In this document: piece by piece, positions 24,847 through 31,902 of the stretch
How the letters are laid out: every line of letters begins with the position of its first letter
How positions within the stretch are numbered: the stretch's first letter is position 1
Source of the DNA: Dehalobacter sp.
Lineage (GTDB): Bacteria; Bacillota; Desulfitobacteriia; Desulfitobacteriales; Syntrophobotulaceae
Assembly (NCBI GenBank): GCA_023667845.1
Contig: JAMPIU010000206.1
Span: 186,001-250,000, forward strand
Length of the DNA stretch: 64,000 nucleotides
Direction: 5' to 3'
Made by a program: the position numbers and the translations under genes
The notes under the pieces: generated by a model
Database searches by the model: none
What the model saw: only the letters and a program-made list of their open reading frames with translations
Told to the model about the DNA's origin: nothing

Positions 24847-26121
24847 TTATAGAACTCCCTTTAACAAATCAATAATAAGCAAAATCCCTGCTATGGCCAT
24901 GACTAGAACGATGACCCATCCTAAGATATTACTTATTCTCTTGTTTACATACTTACCCATAATCTTGTTATTATTAGCAATCAATATGATCAGTGTCATC
25001 AATGGTGGTGCTGCTAAACCATTTAAAACCGCTGAATAATATAGCGCCTTAATCGGGTCAATCCCCAACCAACTAATCACCATGCCAATGAGTGTAGAGA
25101 CCACAATAACCCCATAGAATCCCGGGGCAAGTCCGGCTTTTTTACTTAACCCCTCTTTCAAGCCAATCGTCTCAGCAACGGCATAAGCCGAAGAACCGGC
25201 TAATATCGGAACTGCCAGCAATCCTGTACCAATAATTCCAACAGCAAACAACAGATAAGCAAAATCACCGGCTAATGGCCTCAATGCCTCAGCTGCTTGT
25301 GTTGCCGTTCCAATATTGGTAATACCACTGGCATGTAGCGTTGCTGCCGTGGTAATGATGATAAAAAACATGATTGCCTGAGAAAAAAACATCCCTACGA
25401 TGGTATCCAAATCCATATTATTAACGTTTATCCTGGACACCACAGGTTCTTCAACGCCCATATCTGAAATTGTACCGTCAAAGATTTCCTCCTCAACCTC
25501 TTCTGATGCCTGCCAAAAAAATAAATACGGGGATATCGTGGTTCCTAAAATTGCCACAATATTGAGCAGATATTCTCTTGAAAAATGAAATTTTGGGAAC
25601 ACCGTGTTTTGTATTATGAGTCCCCAATCCAGTTTAATGATTAAGGCTGTCAAGACGTATGCCAACAGTGTCAAGGCCAGATACTTCAAAACTTTAGAAT
25701 AGGTTTTGTAGGTTACAAAAATCTCCAAAACAATGATCAATCCTGTCATGATGCATAGCCAAAAAAGGATAGGCAATCCCAGCAGCATTTGCGCCGCAGA
25801 AGCCATCGCTCCCAGATCCGCGCCAATATTAATTGTATTCGCAATCACTAACAAAGAAACCGATAAATATAACACCGGTTTAGAGTAATGGGCCAGAATT
25901 ACACCGGCCAGCCCTTTTCCGGTTACCATTCCGATACGGCCGCACATTTGCTGAATAACAACCATAAAAGGGAAAGAAAATAATGCCAGCCAAAGCTGGC
26001 TGAATCCGAATATCGCGCCTGTCTGTGAATAGGTAGCAATTCCGGAGGGGTCGTCATCAGCCGCGCCGGTGATAAAGCCAGGGCCAATTTTTTTAAATAA
26101 CCTTTTCAGGTAGTTCAACAT
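24847..26121 (-). CDS. NRAMP-related divalent metal transporter with altered ion site
   Basis: A 424-aa protein with 11 hydrophobic helices in the NRAMP order. Helix 1 reads GPGFITGAADDDPSGIATYS, keeping the metal-binding Asp but with DPSG instead of DPGN. Helix 6 reads GTTISPYLFFWQASEE, with the canonical MPHN replaced by SPYL. Loss of the methionine argues against manganese/iron selectivity and fits the NRAMP-related magnesium transporter (NRMT) branch. The start is ATG 26121 (MLNYLKR), 5 bases after AGGTGG. A structured leader (26146-26244) precedes it. Mg2+ as substrate is inference. Confidence 0.82.
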   Translation of the reverse strand: MLNYLKRLFKKIGPGFITGAADDDPSGIATYSQTGAIFGFSQLWLALFSFPFMVVIQQMCGRIGMVTGKGLAGVILAHYSKPVLYLSVSLLVIANTINIGADLGAMASAAQMLLGLPILFWLCIMTGLIIVLEIFVTYKTYSKVLKYLALTLLAYVLTALIIKLDWGLIIQNTVFPKFHFSREYLLNIVAILGTTISPYLFFWQASEEVEEEIFDGTISDMGVEEPVVSRINVNNMDLDTIVGMFFSQAIMFFIIITTAATLHASGITNIGTATQAAEALRPLAGDFAYLLFAVGIIGTGLLAVPILAGSSAYAVAETIGLKEGLSKKAGLAPGFYGVIVVSTLIGMVISWLGIDPIKALYYSAVLNGLAAPPLMTLIILIANNNKIMGKYVNKRISNILGWVIVLVMAIAGILLIIDLLKGVL

Positions 26122-26145
26122 ATGTACCACCTATAATTAATAATA

Positions 26146-26244
26146 GAGAGTGACGTACCTTAGCTAGATACTCACCCCGACATTTGACACGGCTCCATAA
26201 TAAACTACCAAGTATTAGTATCTAGTTAAAGTATTTCCACTCTC
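26146..26244 (-). promoter_or_regulatory. Structured leader before the NRAMP-like gene (possible riboswitch)
   Basis: Two nested perfect stems: GAGAGTG/CACTCTC (26238-26244 with 26146-26152) and CTAGATACT/AGTATCTAG (26217-26225 with 26164-26172). They enclose a 44-nt core containing GGAGCCGTG and GUCGGGGUG on the minus strand. The end lies 25 bases before the start codon, close to the ribosome site. It does not match the M-box, yybP-ykoY or NiCo consensus I know. Confidence 0.45.
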
Positions 26245-26575
26245 ATAAGTCATTCTTCTCCCATTCCGCAATGAATTTAGCAAGCTCCTTTTTCATTACA
26301 GGTATACGGCTGCCAGCCACGCCGCAGTTCAAACATATGTTATTTTTAAACCCTTGTGCGGTGCATTTATTAGAGACTTCCTGAGCACATCCATAGTTAG
26401 CGCACTCTTTGCACTTGAAAATAGGGTTTTTACAGAGATGTTCAGATTTTTCGCCCGAACATCTTGCAACATTATATTTTTCTTCTTCAGACATTTGAAT
26501 CGGACGTTTTTGATTTAGATAGCCGCCTCTCGCCCAATAGATGTTTTGATTTGGAACTACTCTTTGCCCTTCCAT
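26243..26575 (-). CDS. Cysteine-rich small protein
   Basis: A 110-aa cytosolic protein with ten cysteines, most in pairs: CKNPIFKCKECANYGC, CTAQ, CLNCG. This resembles a zinc or iron-sulfur knuckle protein. The N-terminus is basic and aromatic (NIYWARGGYLNQKRP). The C-terminus is a charged helix. It ends where the leader of the NRAMP-like gene begins, so transcription may run on. Family not recognised. Confidence 0.6.
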   Translation of the reverse strand: MEGQRVVPNQNIYWARGGYLNQKRPIQMSEEEKYNVARCSGEKSEHLCKNPIFKCKECANYGCAQEVSNKCTAQGFKNNICLNCGVAGSRIPVMKKELAKFIAEWEKNDL

Positions 26576-26947
26576 AATAAACTCTCCTCTGTAAAAGTTT
26601 CATTTCCCTTTATTTCTTTTATCACTGTATGTTAAATTGTCGTGAGCATATTACACAAAACCTAATTTGTTGATTTGAGTCCATTCAAATCTTATTTTTT
26701 TACAAACATGAGTTATATTTACTTATTACATCTTAATCTTATATCTATAAAAATTATTTGTCAACTAATTGTTCTAATTATATTTTGAATTATTTTTTTA
26801 ATAATTTTCAACATTTTGTTTCAATTTAACAGCTTACGTGATATGATGAGCACCCTAGGAGGAAAACGATTTCAATTGAAAATAATGAATTGTAGCTACT
26901 TTTTATACTCAAGGGTTGGGCAGATCTGCGTATGAGTCTGTTCAGCA
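26576..26947. other. AT-rich intergenic region without gene
   Basis: The region separates divergent genes. A lone AGGAGG at 26857-26862 is followed only by an 8-codon frame (ATT start, stop TAG). I see no convincing promoter pair, RNA gene or remnant. Confidence 0.4.
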
Positions 26948-29506
26948 ATGGAAGCTAAACAGCGCAAAAATAAGGAGGTTATCAATATAAAAAATCAAGA
27001 CACCAAAATTTTAGTTACAGGCGATATATGTATCAACACACTGTTGTGGAGTACATCTCCACAGGAAAATGATGGTTTGAACCGGCAAAATAATAATCTT
27101 CATAGTATATCAAAGCCAGGAGAAGCATTGCTTTTGGCCGAAATGACCACTTTAGCGACAGGAAAGCAAATTATTTCTCCATCTATTCCCAAGGACATCG
27201 GCTCTTTTACGAATCAGTTTTTACACTCATTTGTTGAGATCGAGCCTTTCCCCTCTTCTGCCGGCAGTAAAGAGGCTAAGGTCTACAGAGTGAGCAGATT
27301 TATGGGGTTTGCTGGCAAGGAAAGTGAAAAGCCGGTGCTGCTCCCTATTGATACCTCAGATGCCCAAACCGTTATTATAGATGACGAAGACAATGGTTTC
27401 AACAATGATGACAGCTACTGGCCGTTAGTGATTAAAGACACGGGAAAAACACCTATTATTCTTTATAAAATGAATAATCCAATTGGAGGAAGCGCACTTT
27501 GGCAGCACTTAGAACAGCATCAATTTGACAGGACTATCGTCATCATTAATGCCGACAACCTCCGTTCAAAAGGTGTCAATATCAGCAAAAGCCTATCTTG
27601 GGAAAAAACGGCGCTTGATTTTGTCTGGCAGCTTAGCAATAACCCAAACCTGTCCTTTTTGTCAACATGCAGACACCTTGTTGTCCTCTTTGGACTGGAA
27701 GGCGTTATTTATTATAAAAACGACGGTATCCCCGAAGCCTACTTATACTTTTTGCCTTACGAGTGCGAGGGGGATTTTATGCGCAACAACCTTGGGAAAA
27801 TGTTCGGGATTACTTCCGTTTTTGTCGCGGGGCTTTCGGCAGTCATTGCAGGTGGAGAAGCGACTGAGCTTTCAACCCTCATTTCCCAAGGCATTCACGA
27901 AGGGATGATTGCAATCAGAAAATACTTTGATTTTGGTTTCGGGGAAAATCCGGATTGTTGTCTTTTTCCAAATCCTTTAATATTTGAGCGAAACTCAAAC
28001 GATACGACTCTTCTGGAATATGTTCAGGATGTAAAGATTCCCAATATTTTAAACAGAGACCATCAGGACAGCTGGTTCATCTTACAGGGAAAAAGCTCGG
28101 CGAGTATTGCGCAAATGGCCTTTGACCTGGTTAAAAACGGAGAGGAAAACGTCCTTAAGCATATACCTACCGCTAGATTTGGCAAGCTGAAGACAGTCGA
28201 CAGGACCGAAATTGAGAGCTATCGGACAATACACAATTTGATTTCGGAATACATCTCATCCAAGAATGTCACCCGCCCCCTTTCCATCGCTGTTTTTGGA
28301 ACGCCCGGTTCGGGGAAATCCTTCGGACTTACAGAAATGGCCACCAGCACCTTCCCCGAAGACATTCAAAAGATAAATTATAACCTTTCCCAATTTCAAT
28401 CACCGCTTGAACTGCAAAAGACATTCCACAAAATCAGCGATATAAATCTTCTTGGAAAAATTCCGCTGATTGTATTTGATGAATTCGACTCTTTCTTTGG
28501 AGGAAACCTCGGATGGCTCAAACATTTTCTGTCGCCTATGCAGGATGGTGTTTACAGAGCTGAAGAAACCTTTCATCCGATCGGAAGGGCGATTTTCGTT
28601 TTTGCCGGTGGAACCAGCAGCTCCTTTTCTGAATTCTGCGGAGAGAAAATCGAAGACGAAGATGAAAAGCGGGTATTTTTAAAAGAGTTTAGGTCTACTA
28701 AGGGGCCTGATTTTGTTATCCGTTTGAGGGGTTATATCAATATACTCGGTCCCAATCAGAGCGATGATAACGACCAACTCTTCATGATTAGAAGGGCTAT
28801 GCTGATGCGTTCATTAATTGAACAAAAGCTTCCTCACTTAATCAACGAAAATGGAGAGGCACAAATAGACAACGATGTTCTTCGGGCAATGCTCAAAATA
28901 CCAAGGTACAAGCATGAGTCAAGATCGTTGGAAGTAATTATGGATATGAGCATTCTGACGCATGCAAAAAAATGGGTGCAATCATTTTTACCTCCAAAGG
29001 AACAGCTCAAGCTTCATCTTGATGAAAAATTGTTCTTGAGGTATATGATGCACGATGCTATTTTTGGTGAAAAAATCGATACGATTGCTCAACTTATAAG
29101 AGGAAAATTCAATGTTCTGGAAGGTGCTGTTTCTGTTAACGGTGACGATATTTCCTTGCCATGGAAGAAGCTTTGCGAACCGCAAAAAAACTTTTATAGG
29201 GATCACATTAAAAATATCCCTGAGGCACTTTTGCTAATACAATACGACGTCATGTATGTTGATGATAAAACAGAGAATTTGGTTTTTTCGGAAGATGAAC
29301 TTAAAGTACTTACCCAATTTGAGTATAAACGCTGCAAAAATTATATACAGGCAAAAGATATAAGCTCCGGACATGCCTGTGTACTCTCCACAGAGGAAGC
29401 CAAAACACAGATTTATCAGATGATCAGTCTCTGGTCCGCTGCTCTTGCCGAGTCAAATTTCAAGTTGGAAAAGCTCAAATTTGTAAACCAGTGCAATATG
29501 TTATAA
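26948..29506 (+). CDS. PfkB-like / AAA+ ATPase / RyR-like multidomain protein
   Basis: 852 aa, cytosolic. Residues 18-340 resemble a ribokinase/PfkB-like fold (ILVTGDICIN; TVIIDDEDNGFN; FDRTIVIINADNLRSKGVNIS; CRHLVVLFGLEGVIYY) without an obvious catalytic GAGD motif. Residues 430-700 are an AAA+ ATPase: Walker A GTPGSGKS (about 453-460), Walker B LIVFDEFDSFF (about 506-516), sensor-1-like AIFVFAGGTSS. The C-terminus (about 735-845) resembles a RyR repeat (RDHIKNIPEALLLIQYDV; DELKVLTQFEYKRC). The gene stands alone. An AAGGAGG lies inside the frame (26972-26978), 8 bases before an ATA at 26987, so initiation there rather than at ATG 26948 is possible. A sensory or defence ATPase is inferred. 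Confidence 0.75.
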   Translation: MEAKQRKNKEVINIKNQDTKILVTGDICINTLLWSTSPQENDGLNRQNNNLHSISKPGEALLLAEMTTLATGKQIISPSIPKDIGSFTNQFLHSFVEIEPFPSSAGSKEAKVYRVSRFMGFAGKESEKPVLLPIDTSDAQTVIIDDEDNGFNNDDSYWPLVIKDTGKTPIILYKMNNPIGGSALWQHLEQHQFDRTIVIINADNLRSKGVNISKSLSWEKTALDFVWQLSNNPNLSFLSTCRHLVVLFGLEGVIYYKNDGIPEAYLYFLPYECEGDFMRNNLGKMFGITSVFVAGLSAVIAGGEATELSTLISQGIHEGMIAIRKYFDFGFGENPDCCLFPNPLIFERNSNDTTLLEYVQDVKIPNILNRDHQDSWFILQGKSSASIAQMAFDLVKNGEENVLKHIPTARFGKLKTVDRTEIESYRTIHNLISEYISSKNVTRPLSIAVFGTPGSGKSFGLTEMATSTFPEDIQKINYNLSQFQSPLELQKTFHKISDINLLGKIPLIVFDEFDSFFGGNLGWLKHFLSPMQDGVYRAEETFHPIGRAIFVFAGGTSSSFSEFCGEKIEDEDEKRVFLKEFRSTKGPDFVIRLRGYINILGPNQSDDNDQLFMIRRAMLMRSLIEQKLPHLINENGEAQIDNDVLRAMLKIPRYKHESRSLEVIMDMSILTHAKKWVQSFLPPKEQLKLHLDEKLFLRYMMHDAIFGEKIDTIAQLIRGKFNVLEGAVSVNGDDISLPWKKLCEPQKNFYRDHIKNIPEALLLIQYDVMYVDDKTENLVFSEDELKVLTQFEYKRCKNYIQAKDISSGHACVLSTEEAKTQIYQMISLWSAALAESNFKLEKLKFVNQCNML

Positions 29507-30099: not shown

Positions 30100-31902
30100 T
30101 TGGCAAATCCACTTGATCCAAACACGATACCCAAATTTGTAAATCAATTGGTTGTTCCCCCGGTCTACGAACCAACTGTGGTTAAATGCCCTAAAACCGG
30201 GAAAATTATAAGTCATGATTATACCGTAACAGTCAGCCAGTTTAATCAGCAAATATTACCGCAGGGTTTCCCGGAAACCACTGTGTGGGGTTACGGCGGT
30301 CAGGTTAAAGACCCTCAAACAGGCGAAATTATTCCCGATTTCCGCTTCTCTCCCGGTGCTACGTTTGAAGCGGTGCGCGACATTCCTGTGAATGTACAAT
30401 GGGTAAACAATCTTACCGGTCCCCATTTGCTTCCGGTTGATCCGACCCTGCATTGGGCCGATCCCAATGGTATGGGTATGCCTATGCCCCCATTTCCACC
30501 CTTCCCTCCCGGTTTTCCTTTGGCCCAAAGTCCTGTTCCCATTGTTACCCACCTGCATGAAGGCGAAACCGAATCAGCTTCAGACGGTCATCCAGACGCA
30601 TGGTTTACAGCAGGAGAGGTGATAAAAGGGCCCGCCTTTGTCAAATCCCTTTACCACTATTTCAACACTCAACCACCTACAACATTATGGTACCACGACC
30701 ATGCTCTGGGCATAACCCGTCTCAATGTTCTTATGGGACTTGCAGGTTTCTACCTGTTACGTGATCCTCATAATCCCCTCGATAAACACAGGTCAGTTTT
30801 ACCGAAAGGCAAATTTGAAATCCCAATAGCCATTCAGGACAGGTCATTTAACACCGACGGATCACTTAATTACCCCAATGTCGGTGTCAACCCTGATATT
30901 CATCCCTATTGGGTACCGGAGTTTTTCGGTGATACAATTATGGTTAATGGCAAAGTCTGGCCTAACCTGGATGTGGAGCCAAGACAATACCGCTTTAGAG
31001 TTCTAAACGGTTCTAACGCCCGGTTCTACAACCTGACGTTTTCCAACGGGATGCCGTTTGTTCAAATCGGCACTGACGCTGGCTATCTGCCAAGGCCCGT
31101 TCAATTATCCTCTTTGCTGATTGCCCCAGGCGAGAGAGCGGATATACTTGTGGACTTTTCATCATTATTACCTGGTACGAAACTAATTCTAGGCAACGAC
31201 GCTCCAACACCCTTCCCAACAGGGGATCTGCCCGATCCTCTTACTACAGGGCAGGTAATGCAGTTTACAGTTCTCGCCAAACCTGTTGTTGTTCCTCCCC
31301 GACTTCCGCGTCGCCTGAATTTTATAACGCCTTTGTTCCCAAACGCCAAAAAGCGAACGCTTGTGCTGGTTGAAGTTATGGGGCCAAACGGTCCTGTAGA
31401 AGTACTATTAGACGGCCAAAGATGGAGCGCTCCTATTTCCGAGCTCCCATTAGTCGGATCGACAGAAGATTGGGAATTGGTTAATCTTACAGCAGACACT
31501 CATCCTATTCATTTGCACCTGGTCTCATTCCAGTTAGTAAGTCGTCAAGCGTTCCTTGCTACTCAGTATACGAACGATTGGATAGCTCTAAATGGTATGC
31601 CGCCGCTCGATCACCCAACCAAGGTACTGCCGGTAAAACCTTATCTACTGCAAGGTCCTGTTGGTCCTCCTGCAAATGAGAAAGGTTGGAAAGATACAAT
31701 CAGGGCTAACCCTGGCGAAGTAACCACTATCCGGGTTCGGTTTGCTCCCCAAGATGCTTCGATATTTACTTTTCCCGGGCTCAATCTTTATCCGTTTAAC
31801 CCTTCAAAAGGACCCGGATATGTTTGGCACTGTCATATTCTTGAACACGAAGATAATGAGATGATGCGGCCATTGAAGGTCAGAACAATCTTTCCATTTT
31901 AA
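30100..31902 (+). CDS. Multicopper oxidase, CotA-like
   Basis: 600 aa, three cupredoxin domains. All four copper motifs are present: HLHEGE (about 152), WYHDHALG (about 199), HPIHLHL (about 468) and the C-terminal HCHILEHEDNEMM (about 576), with Met as axial ligand of the type 1 copper. There is no signal peptide, as in the spore-coat laccase CotA of Bacillus. TTG start with AAAGGAG upstream. A Met/Pro-rich insertion (residues 125-145, MGMPMPPFPPFPPG) lies just before the first copper motif. Laccase, bilirubin oxidase or Mn oxidase activity are all possible; a spore-coat role is the best guess. Confidence 0.88.
   Translation: MANPLDPNTIPKFVNQLVVPPVYEPTVVKCPKTGKIISHDYTVTVSQFNQQILPQGFPETTVWGYGGQVKDPQTGEIIPDFRFSPGATFEAVRDIPVNVQWVNNLTGPHLLPVDPTLHWADPNGMGMPMPPFPPFPPGFPLAQSPVPIVTHLHEGETESASDGHPDAWFTAGEVIKGPAFVKSLYHYFNTQPPTTLWYHDHALGITRLNVLMGLAGFYLLRDPHNPLDKHRSVLPKGKFEIPIAIQDRSFNTDGSLNYPNVGVNPDIHPYWVPEFFGDTIMVNGKVWPNLDVEPRQYRFRVLNGSNARFYNLTFSNGMPFVQIGTDAGYLPRPVQLSSLLIAPGERADILVDFSSLLPGTKLILGNDAPTPFPTGDLPDPLTTGQVMQFTVLAKPVVVPPRLPRRLNFITPLFPNAKKRTLVLVEVMGPNGPVEVLLDGQRWSAPISELPLVGSTEDWELVNLTADTHPIHLHLVSFQLVSRQAFLATQYTNDWIALNGMPPLDHPTKVLPVKPYLLQGPVGPPANEKGWKDTIRANPGEVTTIRVRFAPQDASIFTFPGLNLYPFNPSKGPGYVWHCHILEHEDNEMMRPLKVRTIFPF

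Follow-up and report, generated by a model that had tools for sequence, protein, structure and literature searches.

The locus and its surroundings

The window, a stretch of 64,000 nucleotides from a Dehalobacter sp. contig, carries an open reading frame whose product joins an N-terminal PfkB/ribokinase-like fold, an AAA+ ATPase and a C-terminal tail derived from a RyR domain (Table 1). The coordinates and the 852-aa length given for this frame in the original prediction proved exact. The start is less certain: there is no clear Shine-Dalgarno sequence just upstream of 26948, and close homologues begin near residue 14-20. A strong AGGAGG lies about 90 bases 5' of the ORF (window 26850-26948) and is followed by a three-codon mini-ORF, ATG-AAT-TGT-TAG, an arrangement that may possibly reflect a leader peptide or a misassigned start.

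Five relatives of roughly full length were found in reference genomes (Megamonas, a MAG; three Megasphaera; and Parasporobacterium), with 59-71% identity to the window protein, and comparison of codons shows each of the three parts of the protein to be under purifying selection. Based on these homologues and this selection, the ORF is a real gene. It is the sole copy in its own genome. None of its flanking genes looks functionally tied to it, in agreement with the earlier claim that no partner gene adjoins it, and a synteny search for an empty site in the same genus found no close counterpart of the flanking NRAMP-like or multicopper-oxidase-like genes. Direct comparison of the window protein with Pfam, NCBIfam and PADLOC gave nothing useful, no PADLOC model matches it, and a sequence search against the PDB returned only noise. 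No effector domain (nuclease, protease or membrane part) was recognised in it.

Table 1. Features of the window gene and its neighbours, with positions in the window
Feature	Residues	Position	Strand	Basis or remark
ORF of 852 aa: putative PfkB-like pseudokinase, AAA+, RyR-derived tail		26948..29506	+	start codon uncertain
PfkB/ribokinase-fold domain	18-365 (fold call from 16)	26999..28042	+	AF2 model, Foldseek, VIA-align
GITSVF, at the site of the kinase GAGD motif	287-292	27806..27823	+	model helix start at residue 288
AAA+ ATPase domain	421-690	28208..29017	+	weak Pfam matches, conservation, Foldseek
Walker A, GTPGSGKS	451-458	28298..28321	+	invariant residues
Walker B, LIVFDEFD	507-514	28466..28489	+	invariant residues
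Candidate arginine finger	R592	28721..28723	+	invariant; role by motif reading
Candidate sensor-2 arginine	R659	28922..28924	+	invariant; role by motif reading
RyR-derived C-terminal tail with decayed ligand pocket	691-852	29018..29503	+	profile and alignment
EYKRC, counterpart of the E-H-x-x-W ligand motif; H and W lost	792-796	29321..29335	+	
NRAMP-like transporter		24847-26130		named by reading sequence
Small Cys-rich ORF		26243-26575		named by reading sequence
Multicopper-oxidase-like gene		30100-31902		named by reading sequence

A PfkB fold without its catalytic aspartate

AF2 was used to model the window protein from 17 sequences, which gave a structure of moderate confidence (mean pLDDT 64). 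In this model, residues 17-360 align to ribokinase by VIA-align with Z 17.1 (253 residues, rmsd 4.8), and Foldseek matches a fructokinase with probability 1.00, so the ribokinase-like N-terminal region that had been predicted is well founded. No PF00294 match is detectable in the PfkB part of the family. The structural matches from VIA-align include the PfkB-fold proteins of the plastid RNA polymerase.

The helix that bears the GAGD motif in true kinases starts at model residue 288, and the window sequence at this position is GITS. The catalytic Asp is missing here from every readable homologue in a set of 35 (L037 is masked, L039 and L040 are without the segment, and L041 is poorly aligned). 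The register was read by inspection and from where the helix lies. Alignment with a true ribokinase at the sequence level is too weak for proof, and hhalign paired only a beta-hairpin, which does not cover the motif. The absence of a GAGD motif had been remarked on from the sequence, and it holds across the readable homologues. Because the Asp is missing from all readable homologues, we infer that the PfkB part has lost kinase activity. D276 of the conserved EGDF was considered as a substitute catalytic base and rejected because this Asp varies, with G, R, E or H in its place elsewhere in the family.

A conserved AAA+ motor

The AAA+ ATPase and its Walker motifs were likewise confirmed. Among 22 relatives, G451, P453, G454, G456 and K457 of Walker A, D511, E512, F513 and D514 of Walker B, and both R592 and R659 are invariant, and S458 of Walker A is likewise invariant in a 17-row set. 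AAA+ Pfam matches in the window protein itself are weak and sub-threshold; PF00004 is above cut-off in relatives L040 and L042. The AAA+ part is the most constrained of the protein, with omega values of 0.16, 0.04 and 0.22 for the PfkB part, the AAA+ part and the tail (L002 against L004). Judged from its sequence, the motor is very likely active, and by analogy with the AAA+ family it would be expected to form a ring.

A RyR-derived tail that has lost its ligand pocket

PF02026 has no match above its gathering score in the window protein or in the isolated window tail. It is found in the tails of a Methylobacterium member (1.1e-14), L033 (1.8e-9) and L040 (7.7e-12); the orthologues that reach the gathering score are L033, L040 and P0002. 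The L033 orthologue is 54% identical overall to the window protein, and the two tails align over their whole length (4e-28); a profile of the family tails matches solved RyR structures at 1.6e-24. The predicted RyR-like C-terminus is therefore upheld through the L033 orthologue and the family profile rather than through Pfam on the window protein. Since PF02026 is found only in orthologues, the window tail is best described as RyR-derived, and is not recognisable as a member on its own.

RyR domains bind or cleave 2'/3'cADPR, and the phage protein RyDEP binds cADPR through H75, W78, H100 and D117 (PMC13232231). To map these ligand residues onto the family, we used the L040 tail, which matches chain 35tm_A colinearly. 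The chain is described only as a RyR-domain protein; its residue spacing agrees with that in the paper after a one-residue offset, and on this ground we take it for RyDEP. All four residues are kept in L040, L039 and the Methylobacterium member (L007), and the L033 type keeps three of four, with D117 replaced by Leu. The window protein has Y, C, a gap and I at the four positions and thus keeps 0/4, which leaves it without the RyDEP-type catalytic dyad H75/D117; a stretch of the RyR domain is missing from its tail as well. The same four residues are lost in its five closest relatives, a count in which L003 is near-identical to L002. On the AAA+ tree, the decayed form is a single branch nested beside the L033 type with support of 100/100.

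The loss of the pocket residues and of part of the RyR domain would fit a decaying relic without function. We consider this highly improbable, since the reading frame is unbroken, six genomes retain this decayed form, and the AAA+ region differs from that of Megamonas by 64.7 nonsynonymous changes against saturated synonymous ones. The decayed tail itself is still under purifying selection (omega about 0.13-0.22). With the RyR pocket lost and the tail kept under selection, the window clade probably either binds a different ligand or uses its tail for assembly.

One core with alternative tails

Behind the same PfkB-AAA+ core there is a RyR tail, a SLOG tail or, in P0003 and L041, no tail. In 19 relatives which form a sister clade, another domain of about 220 aa joins the core at the same point, past the AAA+ lid. 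Sequence searches of these tails against the PDB gave only noise, and the fold was settled by structure. A predicted model of the tail (pLDDT 86) matches YpsA at Z 15.3, DprA at 12.2, the MoCo carrier at 9.6, LOG at about 8.7 and TRPM2 at about 8, its Foldseek matches include the ThsA SLOG with 3'cADPR (prob 0.99), and a profile match (4.9e-17) shows the tail to be a homologue of the N-terminal part of a SLOG-SLATT protein. On this model, the sister-clade tail is confirmed as a SLOG fold. The AAA+ tree groups members by tail type, and the SLOG and the decayed-RyR forms each make up one branch.

RyR and SLOG are unrelated folds which both bind ADPR-type signals (PMC13232231; PMC9503650). Because the two are exchanged on one core, the tail can be argued to act as a nucleotide sensor in the family, and their alternation at one position is independent evolutionary evidence that both folds read a similar signal. 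SLOG binding of ADPR-type signals is also seen in ThsA structures. The C-terminal tail is thus the likely nucleotide sensor, and nothing specific points to sensing by the PfkB part, which the original prediction had proposed as the sensor.

For the window clade, it is possible, if doubtful, that the RyR tail serves only as an assembly or target-binding surface and that any sensing is done by the PfkB domain, a reading which concerns this clade alone and is compatible with the family being either a nucleotide-gated switch or a metabolic regulator, both considered below. Selection on a tail that has lost all four ligand residues, in the window copy and five relatives, is consistent with such a surface, as is the existence of members with no tail at all, and the plastid RNA polymerase proteins are a precedent for non-metabolic use of the PfkB fold. 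However, the loss is limited to one derived branch, and other members keep three or four of the four residues.

Relatives with four, three and zero ligand residues, together with the tail-less ones, make up a ready comparison set.

Distribution and gene neighbourhoods

The search covered about 660 genomes, most of them from one phylum. The family was found in 12/83 genomes of its own class, 8/398 sampled from the phylum and 19/63 of one other order, counts which include a few RyR-only matches without the full core. Distant relatives lie on Methylobacterium and Streptomyces plasmids, and the Methylobacterium one is named 'RyR domain-containing protein' by NCBI. Phage and viral collections contained no full-length relative, and none of their contigs carries the core; the phage matches of the L040 relative are confined to its RyR part. 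PADLOC gave for the relatives only an unconvincing mad8 P-loop match to L042.

No conserved partner gene was found across about 35 loci. Most hold a solitary gene amid unrelated, unremarkable ones, and neighbours recur only where close relatives share synteny or where the gene type is a common one. In three Megasphaera loci (L002, L003 and L004), a related gene of 420-450 aa ('NIGVGFVTGRK...', partial in L003) lies upstream; it is not present in the window.

Genes for NADases stand beside a few relatives. In L040 (7812-13066), a three-gene unit encodes a membrane protein with a C-terminal RyR domain, a TIR protein and the PfkB-AAA+-RyR protein; the TIR protein has a TIR match at 1e-12 and weak ThsB/SAVED-TIR PADLOC matches. 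In L039, the family gene is preceded by an RyR-bearing gene and followed by one for a DUF4062-NTPase-TPR protein, DUF4062 being a TIR-like antiphage NADase (PMC13174449). A 2082-aa SIR2-TPR protein is encoded about 1.4 kb away from the plasmid relative L007, and two small genes separate the two. Across 28 genomes, two family genes have a TIR or DUF4062 gene within 3 kb where about 0.05 would be expected by chance, a figure estimated by hand from genome-wide TIR and DUF4062 counts after both loci had been seen. The excess is only suggestive, as the test is post hoc and the two loci, L039 and L040, carry sister sequences and do not count as independent. An adjoining NADase was recognised at 0/19 SLOG-type and 0/6 decayed-RyR loci, with neighbours read mostly by eye and partly scanned with Pfam. 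No ThsB-like TIR gene lies beside the window ORF, and the TIR and DUF4062 genes of its genome are on other contigs. One of these contigs (G000, C144 76308-81523) has two TIR matches within 5 kb, one of them above cut-off.

The original prediction had looked to the neighbourhoods of homologues for a link to defence. Judged by these neighbourhoods, most loci lie among unrelated genes and show no conserved partner. Most are set in metabolic surroundings unrelated to the gene, where no defence island is seen. This would suit a role outside conflict, as an AAA+ regulator that responds to nucleotides and acts in NAD, nucleoside or stress metabolism: its pseudokinase would bind a metabolite, its tail would gauge NAD turnover by reading ADPR, and its AAA+ part would remodel a housekeeping target. 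That nearly all carriers have a single copy fits this picture too, and TRPM2-like and YpsA-like relatives of the SLOG tail read ADPR-type ligands outside immunity. We find such a regulator somewhat unlikely. The gene is patchy within genera, occurring in one of five genomes of its own genus, and the gene tree places the window protein with Megamonas, Megasphaera and a Lachnospiraceae genome, not with L039 from its own family. Both observations suit a transferred accessory gene better than one with housekeeping duties.

RyR, SLOG and TIR modules are also found together at other loci. An operon in L092:3527-7178 and L090:3162-6621 encodes a class III cyclase-like TPR-S protein, a standalone 95-aa RyR domain (PF02026 about 1e-30) and a protein that joins TIR to a right-handed beta-helix, and RyR-TIR adjacency is seen again, by domain matches only, in a third genome, G494 (L091, G494:C151). 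Such an operon might encode a TIR system that carries a dedicated RyR regulator. All three genomes also have a SLOG-type PfkB-AAA+ gene elsewhere. In L047:2497-11411 and L048:5486-12517, a membrane TrkA_N-RyR protein (PF02254 plus PF02026 in L047) stands beside SLOG-SLATT and TIR or DUF4062-type genes.

A proposed nucleotide-gated switch

Our preferred reading, held tentatively and with a little under half of our confidence, is that these proteins form an unnamed accessory family of single-gene, nucleotide-gated AAA+ switches which work in or near NAD-derived signalling. The protein would combine an active AAA+ motor with a pseudokinase of the PfkB fold and, at the C-terminus, a nucleotide sensor that can be exchanged. 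The RyR or SLOG tail of most members would bind an ADP-ribose-type signal from NAD-consuming enzymes (TIR, DUF4062 or SIR2), binding would change how the AAA+ ring assembles or hydrolyses ATP, and the ring would then act on a target held or chosen via the PfkB domain. We infer the ligand, the gating, ring formation, the target and a role in defence, the last of which is plausible for the family.

The original prediction of a dead-kinase sensor coupled to an ATP-driven switch stands as far as its architecture in a lone gene, and the idea of a sensor in the family is favoured by the exchange of RyR and SLOG and by the NADase neighbours of two relatives. For this copy, whose RyR ligand residues are gone, the idea is weakened. 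A bolder version of the switch, which we regard as improbable, would be a single-gene immune device in which the dead-PfkB AAA+ protein reads NAD-derived signals via a swappable RyR/SLOG tail, with the window clade re-tuned to another signal after phages evolved RyR-type enzymes and sponges against cADPR.

RyR domains were linked to cADPR immune signals only in 2026, for phage proteins.

Comparison with known systems

The architecture of a dead PfkB fold and an AAA+ ATPase with a RyR or SLOG tail appears to be undescribed so far: no description was found in the literature searched, mostly non-subscription papers. One of its close ties is to RyDEP and the RyR Repeat12 domain (PF02026), which is the same domain as the tail of RyR-type members and has all of its ligand residues in L040, L039 and the Methylobacterium member. 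RyDEP is a standalone phage protein, whereas here the domain is fused to PfkB-AAA+ in bacteria, L033-type members are without the catalytic D117, and the window copy is without all four residues.

In Thoeris, a ThsB TIR protein is paired with an effector, which may be ThsA (SIR2-SLOG) or another. The tail found in the sister clade matches the SLOG fold of the YpsA/ThsA type, and a TIR gene adjoins the L040 relative, though not the window gene. Instead of a SIR2, Macro or TM effector, the core of this family has an AAA+ ATPase and a putative pseudokinase, and the family points to an ATP-driven output that is not known in Thoeris. In Swarozyc, a DUF4062 TIR-like NADase, the resemblance lies in the DUF4062-NTPase-TPR gene that adjoins the L039 member, but DUF4062 is there in a separate gene and the window family has no NADase domain of its own. 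The RCK/TrkA_N-RyR proteins of L047 and L048 share the RyR and SLOG modules and neighbourhoods in the style of nucleotide signalling, but are membrane proteins without an AAA+ or PfkB part. With the PfkB/ribokinase family, including the plastid FLN/PAP proteins, the window family has its overall fold in common, and it differs in the replacement of the catalytic Asp throughout and in the fusion to an AAA+ ATPase.
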